A stretch of 64,000 nt of DNA from a bacterium (GTDB lineage: Bacteria > Elusimicrobiota > Elusimicrobia > UBA1565 > UBA9628), in NCBI GenBank assembly GCA_021782205.1, contig JAJXVH010000001.1:1-64000 (forward strand), read 5' to 3'. The notes under the pieces are model-generated. The model ran no database searches. It was not told the DNA's origin and saw only the letters and a list, made by a program, of their open reading frames with translations. A program made the translations under genes and the position numbers. Below, piece after piece: positions 47,096 through 57,333 of the stretch. How positions within the stretch are numbered: position 1 is the first letter of the stretch; the number at the start of each line of letters is the position of its first letter.

Positions 47096-48625
47096 TCAGC
47101 GGGTCAGCGCCAGCCAGCGGGACAAAATCGAACGGGCCGTGGGAGTCAGACGCGTACGGTTGTAGGCGTCACCCAGTTTGCGGATCGCCTCGGACTGGGT
47201 CGGATAGGGATGGATGGTCGCCCCGATACCCGCCAGACCCACGCCGTTGTTCATCGCCACGGAAATCTCGCCGATCATGTCGCCGGCGTGGGCTGTGACG
47301 ACGGTCGCGCCCAGGATATTGTCGCCGCCGTCTTCGACCATGATCTTGACGAAGCCCTCGGTCTCACCATCCAGGACGGCTCGGTCCACTTCGTCTAGTT
47401 TCTGGACGAAGGTCCGAACCTTCAAACCTTTGGCCAGCGCTTCTTTTTCGTACAGCCCGACGTGCGCGATCTCGGGGTCGGTGTAGGTGCACCACGGGAT
47501 CGTCAGCGCGCTGAAGCGCTTGCGCCCGAGAAACAGCGCGTTTTGGATGACGATCCGTGCCGAAAAATCGGCGGTGTGCGTGAATTTTTGCGCCAAACAG
47601 ATGTCGCCAGCGGCGTAGATTTTTGGATTAGCGGTACGCAGATGGTCGTCGACCTTGACGCCGAACTTGTCGTAAGCCACCCCGACCTTGTCCAGATCCA
47701 AGCCTTCCACGTTGGGCGCTCGCCCAACGCCGACCAGGATCGCGTCGAACTCCTTCGTGCCGGGGGGGGCGTGCTTGCTCTTGAAACCGACTGTTTTGGC
47801 GTCGCCCGTTTTTTTCACGCTCTCGATGTCGACGCAGCATTGGAATTCGACGCCGTCGCGCGCCAGCGCCTTGCGCACGATCTCGGCTGCGTCTTGGTCT
47901 TCGCGTGTCAGCAGCCCGTGCATGGCCTCGAACAGAGTCACGCGCGAACCCAGACGCGCGAAGGCCTGAGCCAACTCCACGCCGATGGGGCCGGCGCCAA
48001 TGACGAGCAGGCGCTGGGGCAATTCGGTCAGGTTGAACACCGTCTCGTTGGTGAGCGCGCCGGCCGCCATAAGACCCGGGATGGGCAAGGCGACGGCGCG
48101 CGCGCCGGTAGCGATCACGGCTTTGGCGAAGCGCAAGGTCTTGCCCCCGACGGCGACGCCGTCGCCGCCCGTGAAGCGGCCTTGACCGACGAACACGTCC
48201 ACGCCCAGGCGTTTATAGCGCGCCGCCGAATCGTTTCCGCTGATCTGCGCGCGCAAGCGGCGCAGGCGTTCCATGACCGCCGGGAAATCGACGCGTACCC
48301 CGTCCACCTTGACGCCGTAGGCTTGCGCGCCGCGCGCCTGGGCGGCGGCGCGCGAGGCGCGGATCAGCGCCTTGGACGGAACGCAGCCTGCGTTGAGGCA
48401 GTCGCCGCCCATCAGATGCCGCTCTATCAAGGCGACCTTGGCGCCCAGACCCGCCGCACCGACGGCCGTCACAAGTCCCGCGGTGCCTCCGCCGATGACG
48501 ACCATATTGTAGCGGCCCGCCGGTTCGGGGTTCACCCAGCCTCCAGGGTGGACGTTGGCAAGCAGCGTGCGGTTATGTTCGTCCAGGGGCGAGATGAGAT
48601 CGGCGGCGTTCGTTTCTTGAGACAT
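47096..48625 (-). CDS. MerA-like FAD/NAD(P)-dependent disulfide oxidoreductase
   Basis: 509 residues from the ATG at 48625. FAD motif VVIGGGTAGLVTA, redox-active disulfide GGDCLNAGCVPSKALI, NAD(P) motif VIGAGPIGVELAQAFARLGS and HPYPTQSEAIR near the C-terminus. It resembles mercuric reductase, but lacks an N-terminal HMA domain and the C-terminal Cys-Cys pair that MerA needs to receive Hg(II); it ends SILSRWLALTR. It is therefore probably the VTT-associated MerA-like flavoprotein often found in rSAM/selenodomain or arsenosugar neighbourhoods. Coupled to the VTT gene by TGATG; last gene of the merR operon. Confidence 0.88.
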   Translation of the reverse strand: MSQETNAADLISPLDEHNRTLLANVHPGGWVNPEPAGRYNMVVIGGGTAGLVTAVGAAGLGAKVALIERHLMGGDCLNAGCVPSKALIRASRAAAQARGAQAYGVKVDGVRVDFPAVMERLRRLRAQISGNDSAARYKRLGVDVFVGQGRFTGGDGVAVGGKTLRFAKAVIATGARAVALPIPGLMAAGALTNETVFNLTELPQRLLVIGAGPIGVELAQAFARLGSRVTLFEAMHGLLTREDQDAAEIVRKALARDGVEFQCCVDIESVKKTGDAKTVGFKSKHAPPGTKEFDAILVGVGRAPNVEGLDLDKVGVAYDKFGVKVDDHLRTANPKIYAAGDICLAQKFTHTADFSARIVIQNALFLGRKRFSALTIPWCTYTDPEIAHVGLYEKEALAKGLKVRTFVQKLDEVDRAVLDGETEGFVKIMVEDGGDNILGATVVTAHAGDMIGEISVAMNNGVGLAGIGATIHPYPTQSEAIRKLGDAYNRTRLTPTARSILSRWLALTR

Positions 48626-49254
48626 CAGCCCTCCTTTTGATTCTTCGGCACCTTGGCGGACAGCGCGCGCTTGGCCGTGTGGCCCACCAGCCACGCCGCG
48701 ACCGCGGTGGCGACCAGGCCCGCGGCATACAGCGCCCACTCGGCGGGGGTGCGTGCGCGCGCGCCCGCGCCCGCGCGCGCGGCTTCGCCCGCGGCCGCGC
48801 CCAGATAGACGAATAAAAAAGTGCCCGGCATCATGCCGATCCAGGACGCGAGCGTGTACTCGCCGGCACCCACCGAAGTCAGGCCGTAGGCGTAGTTGAG
48901 CAGGCTAAACGGCAGCACCGGCGACAGGCGCGTCAGCAGCACCACTTTCCAGCCTTCATGGCCAACGGCCCCGGCGACCGCTGCGAACGCGGGAATATTT
49001 TCCAGACGCCTCGACACCCAGCCGCGCAGGAGGTGGCGGCCCGTCATGAACGAGGCCCACGCGCCCAGAGTCGAGCCGACGGAAACCAGGAAAAACCCCC
49101 TCCACAGTCCGAACGCCGCCCCCGCTCCCAGCGTCAGCACCGACCCGGGAAGCAACGCCACGCAGGCCAGGACATAGAGTCCCACGAAGGCCGCCCAGCC
49201 CGCGGGGCCCGCTGCGGCCGTCCACGCCAAGGCCGACGCGAGCGACGCCTTCAT
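48625..49254 (-). CDS. VTT/TVP38-TMEM64 family membrane protein
   Basis: 209 residues from the ATG at 49254, which overlaps the DUF547 stop as ATGA. About five hydrophobic segments. The VTT-domain motif appears as LPGSVLTLGAGAAFGLWRGF and the conserved LTRLSPVLPFSLLNYAYGLT, then GMMPGTFLFVYLG. The family includes lipid scramblase-like proteins; pairing with a MerA-like flavoprotein is a known bacterial neighbourhood. Confidence 0.9.
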   Translation of the reverse strand: MKASLASALAWTAAAGPAGWAAFVGLYVLACVALLPGSVLTLGAGAAFGLWRGFFLVSVGSTLGAWASFMTGRHLLRGWVSRRLENIPAFAAVAGAVGHEGWKVVLLTRLSPVLPFSLLNYAYGLTSVGAGEYTLASWIGMMPGTFLFVYLGAAAGEAARAGAGARARTPAEWALYAAGLVATAVAAWLVGHTAKRALSAKVPKNQKEG

Positions 49255-50529: not shown

Positions 50530-50787
50530 CTAGATCGAGCGCAGCCGCTCCAGGATGCGGCTCTTCAAGGCGTCGGCGCCCGGCGCGGCCGACGGCACCC
50601 AGGCGGCGCGAAGCGCCCGCGAGATCACGCGCAATTGGCGCGCGAAGCGCGAGCAATGCGCGCACATCGACAGATGCAGGCGCACGAGAAGGCGCTTCAT
50701 GCGGGGAACGGACTCAAGCTCCCCGGACGCGAGCAAGCCCGTCACCTCTCGGCACGAAGGCATGAGGCGCGCCATCAAGTTCATCAT
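50530..50787 (-). CDS. zinc-finger anti-sigma-like protein
   Basis: 85 residues from the ATG at 50787, overlapping the sigma gene stop as ATGA. CREVTGLLASGEL followed by HLSMCAHCSRF gives the HxxxCxxC zinc motif of ZAS anti-sigma factors. There is no membrane segment, so it should be a soluble sensor holding the adjacent ECF sigma factor; thiol-reactive metals would be expected to release it (inference). Confidence 0.82.
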   Translation of the reverse strand: MMNLMARLMPSCREVTGLLASGELESVPRMKRLLVRLHLSMCAHCSRFARQLRVISRALRAAWVPSAAPGADALKSRILERLRSI

Positions 50788-51395
50788 CGCGGCTTCTTTT
50801 CCCAATTCTTTTCCAGGCACTCCCGCAGCTTGAGCTTGGCCCGGTGCAGGAGCACCCGCAAGTTTGTCGCCGAGATCCGCAAAGCGTTACAGATCGCCTC
50901 CGGCACCTCACCCTCGACCTCTCTGAGAAAAAAGACCGCGCGTTGATCGTCGGAGAGCCCTTCGGCGCAACGCTCCACCCAGGCGCGGATCTCGCCGTCG
51001 AGCGCCGCGGCTTCCGGCCCGCGCGGAGGCCGCGCCCACATCCCGGCCGCGTCGAAGCGCGCGTCGAGCACCGCTTCGATGTCGTCGTGACTCTCCTCGC
51101 GCCGCGCTTTGGCGCGCAGGTTCGACGCCTTGTGATAAAGAATGCCGAACAGATAGGTGCGCACGCTCGACCGGCCCTCGAAACGGTCGAGCCCGGAAAG
51201 AAACGCGACGAAGGTCTCCTGGACGACCTCCTCGGCGTCGGAGCGGGAGAGGCCGATGGCCAAAGCGCCCGCCAGCAGCGTCGGGAGATTCTCGGAAACG
51301 AGCGCGTCGAGCGCCCCGGCCCGACGCGCTTTCAGATCCGCAACGCTCCACTCCCCCGTCTTTTGATCCGGCATGCCGCCGATGTTAGCATTCAC
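50784..51395 (-). CDS. ECF-type RNA polymerase sigma factor
   Basis: 203 residues from the GTG at 51395, which overlaps the preceding stop as GTGA; an ATG at 51374 is an alternative. Region 2 reads SDAEEVVQETFVAFLSGLDRFEGRSSVRTYLFGILYHKA (about 50-88, given here as the span; key DAEEVVQETF and TYLFGI). Region 4 contains LSDDQRAVFFLREVEG and SATNLRVLLHRAKLKLRECL. Its anti-sigma partner follows directly. An ECF pair inside a mer-type operon is unusual. Confidence 0.9.
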   Translation of the reverse strand: MNANIGGMPDQKTGEWSVADLKARRAGALDALVSENLPTLLAGALAIGLSRSDAEEVVQETFVAFLSGLDRFEGRSSVRTYLFGILYHKASNLRAKARREESHDDIEAVLDARFDAAGMWARPPRGPEAAALDGEIRAWVERCAEGLSDDQRAVFFLREVEGEVPEAICNALRISATNLRVLLHRAKLKLRECLEKNWEKKPR

Positions 51396-51871
51396 GCTCT
51401 CGTTTTGCGTTCCGCAGCGAGCCGCTTCACCTCCGCGGCCACGTTGCCCAGGCAGCAGGCGCCTTGCGGGTTCATGCGCTCGCAGTCGCAGCGTCCCGCG
51501 TCGATCTCATGCTTGATGCGGACCGGAATGTCCGTGACACTGCGCGCGGCCAAGTCGCGGCGGATGTCGCCGCGCTTGAAGTCGAAGCAATAGCAGACGT
51601 TGACCTCGTCTCCCGGGTCTTTCTGGGTCACGGCGCGAAGGGTCTCGCCTTTGCGCACGATGGCACCGCCCGAAAAATAGACGACCGCGCAATCGGGGTT
51701 GGCGCAGAAGCCCGCCACGTCGCCGAATTTGGCGCGCGCGTCCGGCGCGAGCTGGCGGTCCAAGGTCTCCCGGCCCACCGTTCGACCGCGCTTCGCGCAG
51801 TCAGGGCATGTCCGCGCGGCGGCGGGCAGGCCGCAGCACGCCTCGTGTTCATCAGGAGCGTGGTTTTCCAT
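51392..51871 (-). CDS. CopZ-like iron-sulfur/zinc metallochaperone domain protein
   Basis: 159 residues with 12 or more cysteines. N-terminal HEACCGLPAAARTCPDCAKRG, then FCANPDCAVVYF, VNVCYCFDF and CDCERMNPQGACCLGNV. This pattern matches the N-terminal [2Fe-2S]/zinc domain of CopZ-type metallochaperones (as in Archaeoglobus), here without the HMA domain. The HMA domain it lacks is present in the neighbouring MerT fusion, so the two may act together. The start overlaps that gene by 20 nt. Confidence 0.85.
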   Translation of the reverse strand: MENHAPDEHEACCGLPAAARTCPDCAKRGRTVGRETLDRQLAPDARAKFGDVAGFCANPDCAVVYFSGGAIVRKGETLRAVTQKDPGDEVNVCYCFDFKRGDIRRDLAARSVTDIPVRIKHEIDAGRCDCERMNPQGACCLGNVAAEVKRLAAERKTRA

Positions 51872-52454
51872 GGTTTCCTCCGTCCCCGAGCAGTTCGGCC
51901 TTGTAGCCCGCGGCCGCGACGGCCGCGATTACGGCGTGGGCGTCGGCCTTGCCGTCGGAGACGACGCTGGCGCTTCCCGCGGAGAAATCGACGCTCGCGG
52001 AAAGCACGCCCGGGACCTTGTCCAAGGCGCGCTCGATTTCCGGAACGCACGCCGCGCAGTCCATGCCCGAGACCTTGAACGCGAGGACTTGCGCTCCGAC
52101 AGGGACCGCGGGGCGGCCGCCGGCGAACAGTCGCGCCGACCAGTTCGGGAACGTGGCCAGCGCCGCGGCCAGAACGGCCGTCGCCCAGAGACCGGCCTTC
52201 ACGCCCGCGCCGGTGGAGCGCCGTTCGCAGCTTTCAGCGGCGCAGGAAACCTTTCGCTTGCGGTAGGCCTGATAGAACGTGACGGCCAGCAGCACTCCGG
52301 TCATCGCCAGGAAAAGCGGTCGGTATTTGGCCAGACCCGCGGCCAGTCCCAAGCTTCCCAGCCCCAGACCGGTCAGAAGCAGCGGGCCCAGGCAGCAGGC
52401 CGAGGCGAGCCCGGCCGAAGCCAGCGCCGCCATGACGGAGAATTTTCTATCCAT
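51852..52454 (-). CDS. merT: MerT-like mercuric ion transporter fused to an HMA domain
   Basis: Inner-membrane Hg(II) uptake protein with a built-in MerP-like domain. 200 residues. The first membrane helix carries the Cys20-Cys21 pair (ASACCLGPLLL). A cytoplasmic loop has Cys71 and Cys76. A third hydrophobic helix lies at about 85-102. The C-terminal HMA domain (about 122-190) has GMDCAACVPEI with Cys133 and Cys136. The fusion replaces separate merT and merP. It overlaps merR by 8 nt. Confidence 0.9.
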   Translation of the reverse strand: MDRKFSVMAALASAGLASACCLGPLLLTGLGLGSLGLAAGLAKYRPLFLAMTGVLLAVTFYQAYRKRKVSCAAESCERRSTGAGVKAGLWATAVLAAALATFPNWSARLFAGGRPAVPVGAQVLAFKVSGMDCAACVPEIERALDKVPGVLSASVDFSAGSASVVSDGKADAHAVIAAVAAAGYKAELLGDGGNHGKPRS

Positions 52455-52866
52455 GGGACGGCCTCCCTAACTCGAGACTTTCCAGTATCGGGCACAAGTC
52501 CGTGGTTCCGCGCACGGCGCAGGTCTTGAGCAGGCGCCGCAGAGTGCTTTCGATCGCCCTCAATCCCGCGATCTTCTCGCGCACCATCGCAAGCCGCGCC
52601 CGGGCCTGCCCCTGGACCGACGCGCAGCGGCTTTTCCGGTCGACGCGCAGGCGCAGGAGCTTGGATATTTCATCGAGGGTGAACCCCAGCGCTTGAGCGC
52701 TCTTGACAAAGCGGATGACTTGCACGGCCTGCGGCCCATAGAGCCGATAGCCCGACTGAGTGCGTCGCTCGGGTGTCAGGAGCCCGCGCTTCTCGTAATA
52801 CCGGACGGTCTGAAGATTGACTCCGGCCAGGCGCGCGACGCGGCCGACGGTCAGTGGTTCGCTCAC
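52447..52866 (-). CDS. merR: MerR, mercury-responsive regulator
   Basis: 139 residues from the GTG at 52866. The winged helix is TVGRVARLAGVNLQTVRYYE followed by GYRLYGPQAVQVIRFVKSAQ. Cys81, Cys116 and Cys125 reproduce the spacing of the three Hg-binding cysteines of Tn501 MerR (82, 117, 126), including SRCASV and DLCPILESLE. It is therefore probably a true Hg(II) sensor. Unlike classical mer operons, merR is here the first gene of the structural operon. It starts 6 nt after its -10 element. Confidence 0.93.
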   Translation of the reverse strand: MSEPLTVGRVARLAGVNLQTVRYYEKRGLLTPERRTQSGYRLYGPQAVQVIRFVKSAQALGFTLDEISKLLRLRVDRKSRCASVQGQARARLAMVREKIAGLRAIESTLRRLLKTCAVRGTTDLCPILESLELGRPSHG

Positions 52867-52872
52867 AGCCTC

Positions 52873-52904
52873 ATTATAGACCCTATACCCAGGTATCGGG
52901 TCAA
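52873..52904 (-). promoter_or_regulatory. MerR-type promoter of the merR operon (20-bp spacer)
   Basis: Minus-strand TTGACC (52904-52899), 20-bp spacer, TATAAT (52878-52873), then 6 nt to the GTG. The stretched spacer is the hallmark of MerR-activated promoters. It contains GATACC and GGGTCTA as an imperfect inverted pair, in the same positions as in the divergent promoter. Confidence 0.8.
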
Positions 52905-52940
52905 TGGGTGATTTTTAGGAATTGTGGGGATAAACGGGTC

Positions 52941-52972
52941 TTGACTTGATACCAAGGTCCGGGGTCTACAAT
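52941..52972 (+). promoter_or_regulatory. second MerR-type promoter, driving the 28-residue Cys-rich gene
   Basis: Plus-strand TTGACT (52941-52946), 20-bp spacer, TACAAT (52967-52972). Aligned with the merR promoter, both have TTGAC, GATACC starting at position 8 and GGGTCTA ending at position 28 of a 32-bp element. The start site should be near 52979, leaving a 45-nt leader with a GGAGG ribosome site. Confidence 0.8.
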
Positions 52973-53023
52973 GCCGGCAGGCCCCGCCAGTCCCGCGACG
53001 CGGAGGGTCAGGAGGTGATTGCG

Positions 53024-53110
53024 ATGACTGAATCCAAATGCTGCTGCCGAGACGGCTGCCGGTGTTGCGAGACGTACTCGTGCTGCCGCGAAAGCGAAAA
53101 GAAGGCCTGA
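53024..53110 (+). CDS. 28-residue Cys-rich metallothionein-like microprotein
   Basis: Translates as 28 residues, MTESKCCCRDGCRCCETYSC followed by CRESEKKA, with cysteines at 6, 7, 8, 12, 14, 15, 20 and 21 (29% Cys). A strong GGAGG ribosome site (53011-53015) sits 8 nt before the ATG, a MerR-type promoter lies upstream and a 13-bp hairpin follows, so this looks like a complete small transcription unit. CCC, CRCC and CC clusters are those expected of a soft-metal (Hg, As, Cu, Cd) binding peptide; the flanks are charged, with no signal peptide. I recognise no family. It is too short for most gene callers. Confidence 0.72.
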   Translation: MTESKCCCRDGCRCCETYSCCRESEKKA

Positions 53111-53117
53111 GTTGCGC

Positions 53118-53151
53118 GGGAGCGCCGGCGGCTTCTTTCGCCGGCGCTCCC
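53118..53151 (+). terminator. hairpin after the Cys-rich microprotein gene
   Basis: A perfect 13-bp stem pairs GGGAGCGCCGGCG (53118-53130) with CGCCGGCGCTCCC (53139-53151) around an 8-nt loop GCTTCTTT. Only a weak T content follows (GTCTCAA), so it may end or attenuate transcription and protect the short mRNA. The following 140 nt to the PiT gene hold no clear gene. Confidence 0.6.
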
Positions 53152-53291
53152 GTCTCAACGGTGATCGCCGGCGGTTCATCGAGCTTAAGCGTGTAAACTC
53201 CGCTGCTACAGTCGACTCCTATAGCCCAGCCAAGCAGCCGTAACAAAATCCGATTTCCCGGGACAGACATGCCGAAGAGCGGGAGGCGATC

Positions 53292-54278
53292 ATGAACGCG
53301 GCGACGGGTCTGGGCCTTGCGGCGGCGACGGGACTTGCCTTCGTCAACGGAGCCAACGACATCTCGAAGTCGATCGCCACGCTGGTCGGCAGCGGCGAGT
53401 CGAGCTACCGGCGCGCCGTCGTCTTGACGGCCCTGGCGACCGCGGCCGGAGCCGTGCTCGCCTCGGCCTGGGCGGTCAAGCTGACTCTGCTGTTCACGCA
53501 CGGTATGCTGTCGCCGCAGGTCCAGCTCAATGAGCTCTTCGCCATGGCGGTGCTGGCCGGAGCCATCGGCTGGGTGGCGCTGGCCAGCCGTTTCGGCTGG
53601 CCGGTGTCGACCACGCACGCGATAGTCGGCAGCGTGGTTCTCACCGGAGCGTACGCCTTCGGCTTCGACAGCGTGTTATGGTCCAGCCTGACCCGGAAGG
53701 TCGCGGTTCCCTTGCTGCTGTCTCCGCTCGTCGCCTACGGCGTGTCGATTCTTTTCTTCCGGGGTCTGAACTGGATTTGCCGCGAAAGATACTGCCTGAA
53801 TTGTCATTGGTCTCACTGGATGAGCGCGATGACAAGCGGTTTCGCGCGCGGACTCAACGACACCCCGAAGATCGCCGCGCTGGGACTGGCGTTCTATGGC
53901 TTGGCGGATGCGGCCGCGAGCGTGGCCCTGCGCTGGTTCTTCCTGGCGCTGGCAGCCGCGATGGCAGCCGGCGCGATCACGATGGGATTCAAGACGACCG
54001 AGACCCTTGCCGTCGAAGTGATCGCGATGGACCACCTTGAGGGCTTCGCCGCCAATTTATCGACGACGCTTCTCGTCGTCTTCGGTGCGACGCAGGGTTG
54101 GCCCATGTCCACCACGCATGTCGCCGGCGGCGGGATCATGGGCATCGGCGCGCGCCGGGGCGGCAAGGCCCTGCGCTGGAAAACGGTTGCCGAGATCGCC
54201 TTCGCCTGGGCGCTCACGGTGCCCGCGGCGGGACTGCTTGGCGTTGCCTCCTACTGGCTGCTTCGCCGCTGCGGCTGA
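53292..54278 (+). CDS. PiT-family phosphate (arsenate) permease
   Basis: Membrane Pi:cation symporter family. 328 residues, about ten hydrophobic segments. The two inverted signature repeats are FVNGANDISKSIATLVGSG (18-36) and RGLNDTPKIAALGLAFYG, each followed by WPVSTTHA or WPMSTTHV. PiT genes with this layout are found beside arsM-arsS, where they may import arsenate or phosphate. Cys-rich ICRERYCLNC in the central loop is unusual and could bind metal. Confidence 0.9.
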   Translation: MNAATGLGLAAATGLAFVNGANDISKSIATLVGSGESSYRRAVVLTALATAAGAVLASAWAVKLTLLFTHGMLSPQVQLNELFAMAVLAGAIGWVALASRFGWPVSTTHAIVGSVVLTGAYAFGFDSVLWSSLTRKVAVPLLLSPLVAYGVSILFFRGLNWICRERYCLNCHWSHWMSAMTSGFARGLNDTPKIAALGLAFYGLADAAASVALRWFFLALAAAMAAGAITMGFKTTETLAVEVIAMDHLEGFAANLSTTLLVVFGATQGWPMSTTHVAGGGIMGIGARRGGKALRWKTVAEIAFAWALTVPAAGLLGVASYWLLRRCG

Positions 54279-54346
54279 TCCAGCGGACCTCACCCGCCAT
54301 TGCTCTGCTGTGAAGCCATGAAAGCTGGAAGCCGGACGGAGGAGAC

Positions 54347-54514
54347 ATGGAAGACAATGCACTGACCTGCAGCCGCTGCAACATGAATGCGGAATCCGGC
54401 CAGACGGGCTGGAAAAAATGCGATAAATGCGGAGAATTGTGGTGTCCAAAGTGCGCCCCGGTCGAGGACCGGTGCTCGAACTGCATCGGTGGAATCCTAA
54501 GACCCACGCCATGA
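54347..54514 (+). CDS. 55-residue four-CxxC zinc-ribbon microprotein
   Basis: 55 residues from the ATG at 54347 with a GGAGGAGA ribosome site. Four CxxC pairs are visible: CSRC (8-11), CDKC (25-28), CPKC (34-37) and CSNC (45-48), enough for two zinc ribbons or one iron-sulfur site. The pairs are well spaced (GWKKCDKCGELWCPKC), unlike the clustered cysteines of the 28-residue protein. It lies between PiT and the aquaporin in the same direction. No family named with confidence. Confidence 0.75.
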   Translation: MEDNALTCSRCNMNAESGQTGWKKCDKCGELWCPKCAPVEDRCSNCIGGILRPTP

Positions 54515-54590
54515 ACGGCCGGCGCAGGCACCCGTTGTAACGGATCGCCTCCGGCGCGGACATATTGCGGACGGCGGAGGGAGGAAGCGG

Positions 54591-55268
54591 ATGAACGACG
54601 GTGGGATACTAAGGCGCGGCGCGAGCGAGTTCATTGGAACCGGACTTTTGCTGGCGGCCGTGGTCGGATCCGGCATCATGGGGCAGGCCCTATCCGGAGG
54701 AAGCGCCGCCCTGGCGCTTCTCGCCAACTCCGTCGCGACCGGGGCCTCGCTCATCGTTCTGATCACGATATTCGGCCCCGTCTCAGGCGCTCACTTCAAT
54801 CCGGCCGTGACCATGGTCTTCCTGCTTAGACGCGAAATCCGCGCGACGGACGCGGCGGTCTACGCCGCGGCGCAAATCACGGGAGGCGTACTCGGGGTCT
54901 TGGAGGCGCACGTCATGTTCGCCGAATCCTTGGTGCAAATGTCGACCAAGCTGCGCGGCGGGTCCGCCCAAGGCTTTTCAGAATTCGTCGCCACGTTCGG
55001 CCTCATCGCCACGATCATCGGAACGCTGCGCTCAAAAACGGGCTCCGTTCCGATTATGGTCGGCCTCTACATCACCTCCGCATACTGGTTTACCGCGTCG
55101 ACGGCCTTCGCCAACCCAGCGGTGACGCTGGCCCGCACGCTGACCAACACGTTCGCCGGGATAGCCCCAACCTCCGCGCCGCTTTTCATCGCAGCGCAGC
55201 TTGCGGGAGCGCTCGCCGCTGCGGCCTTCTGCTCTTGGTTGTTCCCGGCGGGAGAACCTCTCCGATGA
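54591..55268 (+). CDS. MIP-family aquaglyceroporin (arsenic-linked type)
   Basis: Channel protein, 225 residues, six membrane helices with two pore motifs: HFNPAVTM and FANPAVTLAR. The Arg after the second NPA is part of the selectivity filter. Its stop overlaps the arsS start (ATGA), so it belongs to the arsenosugar operon. Such AqpS-like channels move arsenite or methylated/organic arsenicals in other clusters; direction and substrate are inferred. Confidence 0.9.
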   Translation: MNDGGILRRGASEFIGTGLLLAAVVGSGIMGQALSGGSAALALLANSVATGASLIVLITIFGPVSGAHFNPAVTMVFLLRREIRATDAAVYAAAQITGGVLGVLEAHVMFAESLVQMSTKLRGGSAQGFSEFVATFGLIATIIGTLRSKTGSVPIMVGLYITSAYWFTASTAFANPAVTLARTLTNTFAGIAPTSAPLFIAAQLAGALAAAAFCSWLFPAGEPLR

Positions 55269-56281
55269 ACGAGCGCAAGACGCCCATTGCCGTCAGGCGC
55301 GAGGCGAAATCCGACTTCGAGCGGACGCTCGCGGGGCATTCTCTCGACATCCGACGCATGGCCGTCTCGACAGTGCAGGTCAACACCGGCAGATTGTGCA
55401 ACCAGGCTTGCGCCCACTGCCATGTGGAGGCGGGCCCGCTACGGCGCGAATTGATGCAGAAGCGAACGATCGACCGCGTCCTCCAACTACTGGAGCATTC
55501 GCCGACGGTCTTGGAAGTCGACATCACCGGTGGAGCGCCCGAGCTGAATCCGCATTTCCGCTTTTTAGTTCAAGCCTCGCGCCGGTCCGGGAAGTCGGTG
55601 ATCGACCGCTGCAACCTGACCGTCCTCTTCGAGCCGGGACAGGAGGACACCGCGGAGTTCCTCGCGGCGCACCGCGTGCGGATCGTCGCGTCTCTGCCGT
55701 GCTACCTGGAAGACAACGTCGACGCCCAGCGCGGCCACGGCGTCTTCGAGAAAAGTCTCGCGGCGCTGCGGCGTCTCAATACTCTGGGCTACGGCAGGCC
55801 GGAAAGCGGGCTTGATTTGAATCTCGTCTACAACCCCATCGGCGCTGGACTGCCTCCGCCCCAACCGGCGCTCCAAGCCGCGTATCGCGAACATCTAGGC
55901 GATGAATATGGGATCGTCTTCAACGAACTCATCGCGATGACGAACATGCCCATCAAGCGCTTCGCGCGCGCGCTGGAGCGCGAGGGTAAGGCCGAAAGCT
56001 ATCGGTGCCTGCTGGCGGAAAACTTCAACCCCGCAGCTGCGGCGCGCGTGATGTGCGCAAGCCTCGTGTCCGTCTCATGGGACGGAACCCTGCACGACTG
56101 CGACTTCAATCAGATGCTCGAGATTCCACTAGGCCGTCGTGCGAGAAGCATCTGGAACATCGATTCCTTCGAAGCGGTCGGACCCGGCATCGCTTTCGCC
56201 GATCATTGCTTCGGCTGCACGGCCGGCGCGGGAAGCTCCTGCGGCGGCGCTTTGACTTCCAAAACAGGAGAAGAATCATGA
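55265..56281 (+). CDS. arsS: radical SAM arsenosugar biosynthesis protein ArsS
   Basis: Radical SAM enzyme thought to link the deoxyadenosyl group to dimethylated arsenic. 338 residues from the ATG at 55265; the in-frame start at 55235 overlaps the aquaporin gene more. The 4Fe-4S motif is CNQACAHC (45, 49, 52), followed by ITGGAPELNPHF. The C-terminal Cys-rich tail contains LHDCDFNQML and DHCFGCTAGAGSSCGG, characteristic of the selenodomain-associated rSAM/Cys-rich family to which ArsS belongs. Overlaps arsM by ATGA. Confidence 0.92.
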   Translation: MNERKTPIAVRREAKSDFERTLAGHSLDIRRMAVSTVQVNTGRLCNQACAHCHVEAGPLRRELMQKRTIDRVLQLLEHSPTVLEVDITGGAPELNPHFRFLVQASRRSGKSVIDRCNLTVLFEPGQEDTAEFLAAHRVRIVASLPCYLEDNVDAQRGHGVFEKSLAALRRLNTLGYGRPESGLDLNLVYNPIGAGLPPPQPALQAAYREHLGDEYGIVFNELIAMTNMPIKRFARALEREGKAESYRCLLAENFNPAAAARVMCASLVSVSWDGTLHDCDFNQMLEIPLGRRARSIWNIDSFEAVGPGIAFADHCFGCTAGAGSSCGGALTSKTGEES

Positions 56282-57333
56282 GCGAGACCGCGGACGCCGT
56301 CAAGAAGGGCGTACAGCAATATTATGGGGAAGTGCTACGGAGCAGCGCCGACTTGAAAACCGGTGCCTGCTGCGCGACGGAGTCGATGCCGAGCCATCTT
56401 CGCCCTCTCCTGGGAAAGATTCATCCCGAAATCCAGGATCGGTTCTACGGCTGCGGTTCGCCCATCCCGCCCGCGCTGGACGGCAAGGCCGTCATCGATT
56501 TGGGCTGCGGCACGGGACGGGACGTGTACTTGATCGCGCAGTTGGTGGGTGAGGCGGGGAAAGTCGTCGGCATCGACATGACCAAGGGCCAACTCGCCTT
56601 AGCCCAGCGCCACCTTCAAGATCAAATGAGCGCGTTCCACTACTCGCGCACGAACGTCGAGTTCCATCACGGTTACATCGAGGACCTCCGGAGTCTGGCC
56701 GTCGCCGACGCATCCATGGACGTCGTGGTCTCGAACTGCGTCATCAACCTCTCGCCGGACAAGAAAGCCGTGTTCCGGGAAATATTCCGGGTCCTCAAGC
56801 CCGGCGGAGAGCTCTATTTCTCGGACGTGTTCGCCGGACGCAGACTGCCGCAGGCGCTGCAGCGCGACCGAGAGCTGATCGGCGAATGCCTGGGCGGCGC
56901 CATGTACATCGAGGATTTCCGCCGAACGCTGCGAGACATCGGCTGCCTGGATTACCGGGTGATGAGCCGGCGGCGCGTCGGCCTCGATGATCCGGACATC
57001 GAGCGCAAGGCGGGCATGGTGGATTTCCACTCGATGACCGTACGAGCCTTCAAGCTGGACCTCGAGGACCTCTGCGAGGACTACGGACACGTCGCGACCT
57101 ACAAAGGGACGATCGCCGAGGCGCCGCACGCCTTCCACCTGGACGATCATCATTTGTTCCGAACCGGGATGCCCGAACGCGTCTGCGGCAACACCTACAA
57201 GATGCTCGCCGAGACGCGCTTCGCCCCGCATTTCGCCTTCAGCGGCGATTTCTCGACCCACTACGGCGCGTTCCCCTGCGGTCCCGCGCATCCCGCGGCG
57301 TCCTCGACGCCCGCGGCAGGGGCCTGCTGCTGA
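56278..57333 (+). CDS. arsM: arsenite S-adenosylmethionine methyltransferase
   Basis: Methylates As(III) to mono- and dimethyl species. 351 residues from the ATG at 56278; sequence upstream in the same frame lies in arsS. SAM motif VIDLGCGTGRDVYLIAQ (72-88). Arsenic-binding cysteines: Cys59 (FYGCGSP), Cys154 (VSNCVINL) and Cys204 (GECLGG). The last two are 50 residues apart, as in the well-studied algal enzyme. An N-terminal Cys31-Cys32 pair and a C-terminal AGACC tail add thiols. Coupled to arsS. Confidence 0.93.
   Translation: MSETADAVKKGVQQYYGEVLRSSADLKTGACCATESMPSHLRPLLGKIHPEIQDRFYGCGSPIPPALDGKAVIDLGCGTGRDVYLIAQLVGEAGKVVGIDMTKGQLALAQRHLQDQMSAFHYSRTNVEFHHGYIEDLRSLAVADASMDVVVSNCVINLSPDKKAVFREIFRVLKPGGELYFSDVFAGRRLPQALQRDRELIGECLGGAMYIEDFRRTLRDIGCLDYRVMSRRRVGLDDPDIERKAGMVDFHSMTVRAFKLDLEDLCEDYGHVATYKGTIAEAPHAFHLDDHHLFRTGMPERVCGNTYKMLAETRFAPHFAFSGDFSTHYGAFPCGPAHPAASSTPAAGACC

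Follow-up and report, generated by a model that had tools for sequence, protein, structure and literature searches.

A candidate 28-residue metallothionein-like peptide gene with its own MerR box in a mercury locus

The stretch of DNA analysed here (64,000 nucleotides, hereafter the window) contains at 53024-53110 a frame that we consider rather likely to be a genuine gene, controlled by MerR and translated into a minimal metallothionein-like peptide that would bind or buffer the Hg(II) imported by MerTP. As far as the sequence allows one to judge, it seems probable that its 28-residue product is a metal-binding protein of very small size, since two related bacteria have comparable tiny Cys-rich peptides in mercury operons. 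The gene and the elements surrounding it are as follows.

53024..53110, plus strand: peptide gene, 28 residues, 8 Cys, MTESKCCCRDGCRCCETYSCCRESEKKA (translation of the frame)
53010..53019, plus strand: Shine-Dalgarno sequence AGGAGGTGAT, near-perfect
52941..52972, plus strand: second MerR box and promoter, oriented toward the peptide, TTGACTTGATACCAAGGTCCGGGGTCTACAAT, 29.6 bits
52873..52904, minus strand: MerR box and promoter of the merR-merTP operon, 49.1 bits
53117..53152, plus strand: perfect hairpin of 14 bp with an 8-nt loop, beginning 7 nt past the peptide stop; putative transcript end or stabiliser
52901-53179 and 52863-53618, minus strand: overlapping ORFs across the peptide site

The ORF, its coordinates, and the eight Cys positions given in a preliminary description of this DNA (residues 6, 7, 8, 12, 14, 15, 20, and 21) were all exact on translation. 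With 8 Cys among 28 residues (29%), grouped as CCC, CxCC, and CC, and a single Tyr, the peptide has the composition that characterizes metallothioneins (short, Cys-rich, with CC/CxC clusters and few aromatic residues), as had been proposed. The strong GGAGG site reported in front of it was also found: the 10-mer AGGAGGTGAT occurs only once in the window, both strands considered, and its AGGAGG stops 8 nt short of the peptide ATG. No Pfam or NCBIfam family, including the catalogued metallothionein families, matched the peptide, no relative was found in the PDB (best E value 3.2), and the one match obtained with Rfam was far under the gathering score.

The preliminary description had also placed a MerR-type promoter upstream of the peptide. 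A weight matrix was derived from 25 boxes located upstream of merR in relatives from the phylum. It was applied to the window and to the merR loci, with 660 kb of other DNA of the phylum as control. The top score in the control DNA was 12.3 bits, as compared with 29.6 bits at 52941-52972, where a MerR operator with −35 and −10 elements and a spacer of about 20 bp lies upstream of the peptide in the correct orientation. This second box is weaker than that of merR itself (29.6 versus 49.1 bits). Transcription from it would be expected to start about 45 nt upstream of the peptide start, at about 52979. In the other merR loci, every similarly scoring site was either the box of merR itself or its reverse complement, so that the second box is peculiar to the window locus; the matrix scan found no independent second MerR box in the other loci among the 41 merR loci. 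The peptide gene is linked to the mer genes, with 158 nt to merR and then merTP, and its possession of a second MerR box of its own lends support to the mercury-regulated position that had been assigned to it.

The mercury genes and their neighbours in the window are listed below.

52447..52866, minus strand: merR, Hg-type (C-x8-C plus an upstream Cys); best family TIGR02051, 122 bits, under the curated cut-off of 151
51852..52454, minus strand: merTP-like gene, MerT membrane domain fused to an HMA domain; Pfam MerT and HMA above cut-off, NF033556 below
51392..51871, minus strand: CopZ-N-type putative Fe-S metallochaperone; NF047645, 103.6 bits, above cut-off
47096..48739, minus strand: FAD disulfide oxidoreductase, MerA-like, not MerA; NF004991 above cut-off, TIGR02053 below
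53292..54278, plus strand: Pho4/PiT-type transporter (PF01384), first gene beyond the hairpin

To the left of the peptide, a minus-strand run comprises merR, the merTP-like gene, the gene of the CopZ-N-type chaperone, and more genes up to that of the FAD oxidoreductase. The C-x8-C segment of MerR reads CAVRGTTDLC and is accompanied by a Cys upstream, which we take to be the pattern of Hg-type MerR proteins. No MerA above the TIGR02053 cut-off was found in the genome to which the window belongs (95.6% complete), the best score being 376 bits versus 454; the oxidoreductase at 47096-48739 ends in SRWLALTR, without such a pair. These results agree with the earlier remark that a standard reductase is missing. 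The same gene run also holds, at 50530-51395, an ECF sigma factor and a zf-HC2-like partner, a pair that is divergent from the transporter gene in several relatives. On the other side, positions 53292-57333 form an arsenosugar-type cluster consisting of the Pho4-type transporter, a 55-aa zinc-ribbon-like ORF (62-70% conservation in other genomes), an aquaporin, an ArsS-like radical SAM protein, and an ArsM-like protein. For the arsenic role that had been offered as an option for the peptide, no support was found apart from these neighbouring arsenosugar-like genes.

Conservation was analysed in 341 genomes of the phylum, in which a MerR search returned 41 mercury-type merR loci in 34 genomes (E <= 1e-25); the DNA around all 41 was examined. 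An orthologue of the peptide, looked for in close relatives as the preliminary description had advised, was found in no other genome of this set. In a protein search of 58 relatives, eleven weak matches were obtained (E 0.1-3.4), and scanning of those loci for a Shine-Dalgarno sequence plus Cys residues gave no convincing mini-gene. The 8-Cys pattern was also looked for as exact DNA in 295 genomes, a search that was discarded, as nearly all of its matches were TGC/TGT repeats; viral contigs contained matches to the pattern as well. In the nearest relative, G012 (MerR 86%), homology to the window reaches only just past the box of merR, and another gene lies at that place; neither the peptide nor the second MerR box is present. 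The outcome that the preliminary description had named as evidence for a noncoding transcript, i.e., loss of the ORF while the promoter is kept, was therefore not observed, because this relative lacks the second promoter along with the ORF.

Comparable genes were found when, as had also been suggested, the neighbourhoods of merR were searched for short Cys-rich ORFs: two further genomes, G026 and G031, carry three of them in their mer loci. The scan retained ORFs of <=60 aa with >=5 Cys, >=16% Cys, and a Shine-Dalgarno sequence, thresholds that were set after the first matches had been seen. It gave 4 matches in the 592 kb examined around merR loci, a total that takes in the entire window, versus 0 in 660 kb of control DNA, the numbers of matches being small overall, and all 4 are located inside or beside mer operons. 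The three matches from the other genomes are as follows, the last two both from G031.

Locus L229, 3925-4098: mini-gene, 57 aa, 10 Cys, strong Shine-Dalgarno sequence, between merTP and merA
Locus L230, 10958-11035: mini-gene, 25 aa, 8 Cys, strong Shine-Dalgarno sequence, MNEENAKTCGCGCSCCSSEKCCCSK, directly behind merA
Locus L247, 7983-8054: mini-gene, 23 aa, 7 Cys, strong Shine-Dalgarno sequence, MEEKNCCKSCCENCYTDDCCKKS, second gene after merR

The TGA of the L229 mini-gene overlaps the probable merA ATG, and the MerA of L230 ends in KLSCCAE; the MerA proteins of both loci pass TIGR02053. In L247, the mini-gene is preceded by merR and a gene of 104 aa whose match to the DF (seleno)protein family falls under the cut-off. 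None of the four peptides belongs to a family catalogued in Pfam or NCBIfam. When the peptides were compared with each other, the window-L247 pair stood out clearly, its score being reached by 13 of 2000 shuffles of the same composition, and the score of the L230-L229 pair was marginal (86 of 2000). The remaining pairs did no better than shuffles, so that the likeness among the four is mostly one of composition and common descent of all of them is not established. A profile made from three of the four peptides, run against the 341 genomes, recovered only these peptides above background; such a profile would miss peptides as divergent as the one of 57 aa. The other 37 of the 41 merR loci, including many merTP loci without a nearby MerA, have no Cys-rich mini-gene, and its presence in only 4 of 41 implies that it is dispensable.

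These data bear on whether the frame is a gene at all. A chance ORF within a short non-coding transcript or a promoter remnant would account for its occurrence in one genome only and for its lack of conservation in close relatives, but it would leave unexplained the near-perfect Shine-Dalgarno sequence at the right spacing, the independent MerR box, and the restriction of comparable mini-genes to mer loci relative to the control DNA; we regard this reading as very improbable. They also bear on the metal. A real peptide might bind copper, arsenite, or zinc, or serve as a thiol carrier that passes Hg(II) among MerTP, the CopZ-N-type chaperone, and a reductase. A CopZ-N-type metallochaperone is indeed encoded in the same operon, arsM, arsS, and aquaporin genes lie downstream, and the direct adjacency of a mini-gene to a true merA in two genomes is as expected of a carrier. 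However, the MerR protein is most like the Hg-type, merTP adjoins it, and no feature specific to another metal was found, and another metal or role thus appears improbable.

The idea of a scavenging peptide in a pathway that has no standard reductase, put forward in the preliminary description, fared unevenly: the lack of a MerA above the cut-off in the genome of the window speaks for it, whereas two of the counterparts sit with a true MerA, and the peptide is therefore not simply a substitute for the reductase. As no MerA is available in the genome of the window, the peptide may act there as a sink for Hg(II), while the peptides that accompany MerA in G026 and G031 may hold Hg(II) for reduction.

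A downstream hairpin had been reported as a stem of 13 bp; it is present, but 14 perfect pairs were counted. The structure at 53117-53152 (−40 kcal/mol, z −5.6) is the longest perfect stem of the window among those with loops of 3-9 nt. No U-tract follows it, the terminator scan did not pick it up, and no competing antiterminator or alternative structure appeared in the predicted fold around it. The main rival reading takes the frame as a leader peptide of an attenuator, in which the eight Cys codons would sense charged Cys-tRNA or the depletion of thiols by Hg, and the hairpin would gate the transporter and arsenosugar-like genes. The frame is the first ORF after the promoter, its eight Cys codons are clustered in runs, and a very stable hairpin begins just past its stop; there is also a precedent, as polycysteine leader ORFs are described as cysteine-responsive attenuators in mycobacteria (Canestrari et al. 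2020, as cited in PMC9094748). However, an attenuator agrees poorly with a stem that lacks both a U-tract and an antiterminator, and the next gene, 181 nt further on, encodes a transporter and not a protein of cysteine metabolism. Of the counterparts, those of L229 and L230 are internal to operons, placed between mer genes and behind one, respectively, and that of L247 comes second behind merR. As no counterpart is a leader, this reading is weakened, and we hold it to be unlikely.

The mer loci of the phylum yielded further observations. A Cys-rich thioredoxin-like protein of about 85-92 aa with 8-10 Cys is conserved in many of them, though not beside the merR of the window; its motif is FTAGCPVC...CPNCEVV.YDLNKGC.TNEC...LLDCC, and its best NCBIfam match was far under the cut-off. 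Its copies were located as follows.

L250:10791-11069, L251:5175-5453, L252:6328-6585, L255:9071-9325, L257:2044-2301: copies of the thioredoxin-like protein
L353:3594-3845, L358:1864-2121, L246:9149-9400, L215:16028-16225: further copies of the same protein

In two genomes, a BufA2-like bufferin metallophore is encoded close behind the mer operon (L250:11322-11522, L251:4722-4922), the L250 copy scoring 59.5 bits with NF050166 versus a cut-off of 60. Operons with merR, merTP, and a CopZ-N-type gene for which no adjacent MerA was seen occur in L213, L214, L215, L223, L224, L226, L227, L228, L246, and L259; the whole-genome MerA check covered G000, G012, G026, and G031.

Comparison outside the phylum rests essentially on six annotated plasmid mer operons (Pseudomonadota), in which a similar scan found no Cys-rich mini-ORF. 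A tblastn search against plasmids with the peptide of the window and the 57-aa peptide gave no convincing match. An alignment of MerTP against named genomes was rejected as a mer survey, since its 80 loci were mainly HMA domains.

The nearest known kinds in function are SmtA and MymT, which have other regulators, and the CadR-activated Zrd. SmtA/BmtA and MymT of Mycobacterium tuberculosis are also small and Cys-rich, and they are found in a metal-responsive setting, as the peptide of the window may be; the peptide differs from them by being about half as long, by having no detectable sequence similarity to them, by its presumed regulation by an Hg-type MerR, and by being a putative metal binder. 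MymT had likewise been a small ORF missing from annotations, and copper resistance depends on its up-regulation (PMC7558416). Zrd of Pseudomonas aeruginosa, a zinc-ribbon, metallothionein-like protein activated by the metal-sensing MerR-family regulator CadR (PMC12301328), resembles the peptide in its metallothionein-like nature and in the control by the MerR family that is predicted for the peptide, but has a zinc-ribbon fold and mononuclear sites, and responds to Zn/Cd rather than Hg. Mycobacterial polycysteine leader ORFs are also very short and precede another gene, and their Cys codons are clustered; these are leaderless regulators, whereas the peptide has a strong Shine-Dalgarno sequence and a MerR box, and none of its counterparts is a leader. 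With the classical mer operon (merT, P, C, E, F, A, B, D, R), the window locus has in common a MerR-type promoter and adjacent merR and merTP, but the classical genes include no metallothionein-like peptide. In the main text of a survey of mer genes, metallothionein is not mentioned (PMC8261052).

In the reading that we prefer, a metallothionein-like peptide under MerR control, MerR carrying Hg(II) would sit on the second box and activate a short transcript that stops at the hairpin, around 53150. The eight thiols of the peptide, in their CCC, CxCC, and CC groups, would then bind the Hg(II) imported by MerTP, and the peptide would buffer it or keep it for a partner. Translation, induction by Hg, Hg(II) binding, and the buffering role are all steps that we infer. 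A wider proposal, which we advance only tentatively and think less probable than its negation, is that of a mercury regulon that has no reductase: Hg(II) would enter through MerTP, and the peptide, on its own second MerR promoter, would be the sink. Among bacterial metallothioneins the peptide would then be one of the smallest, and several such peptides would have arisen independently in the mer operons of the phylum.

In the textbook account of mercury resistance, the metal is imported and then reduced by MerA. In many loci of the phylum, merTP is found without a MerA seen nearby, which raises the question of where the imported Hg(II) goes. A recurrent MerR-linked mini-metallothionein, if true, would be a testable answer for some of these loci. 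The finding also suggests that a class of mer genes escapes gene callers because its members are shorter than 60 codons.
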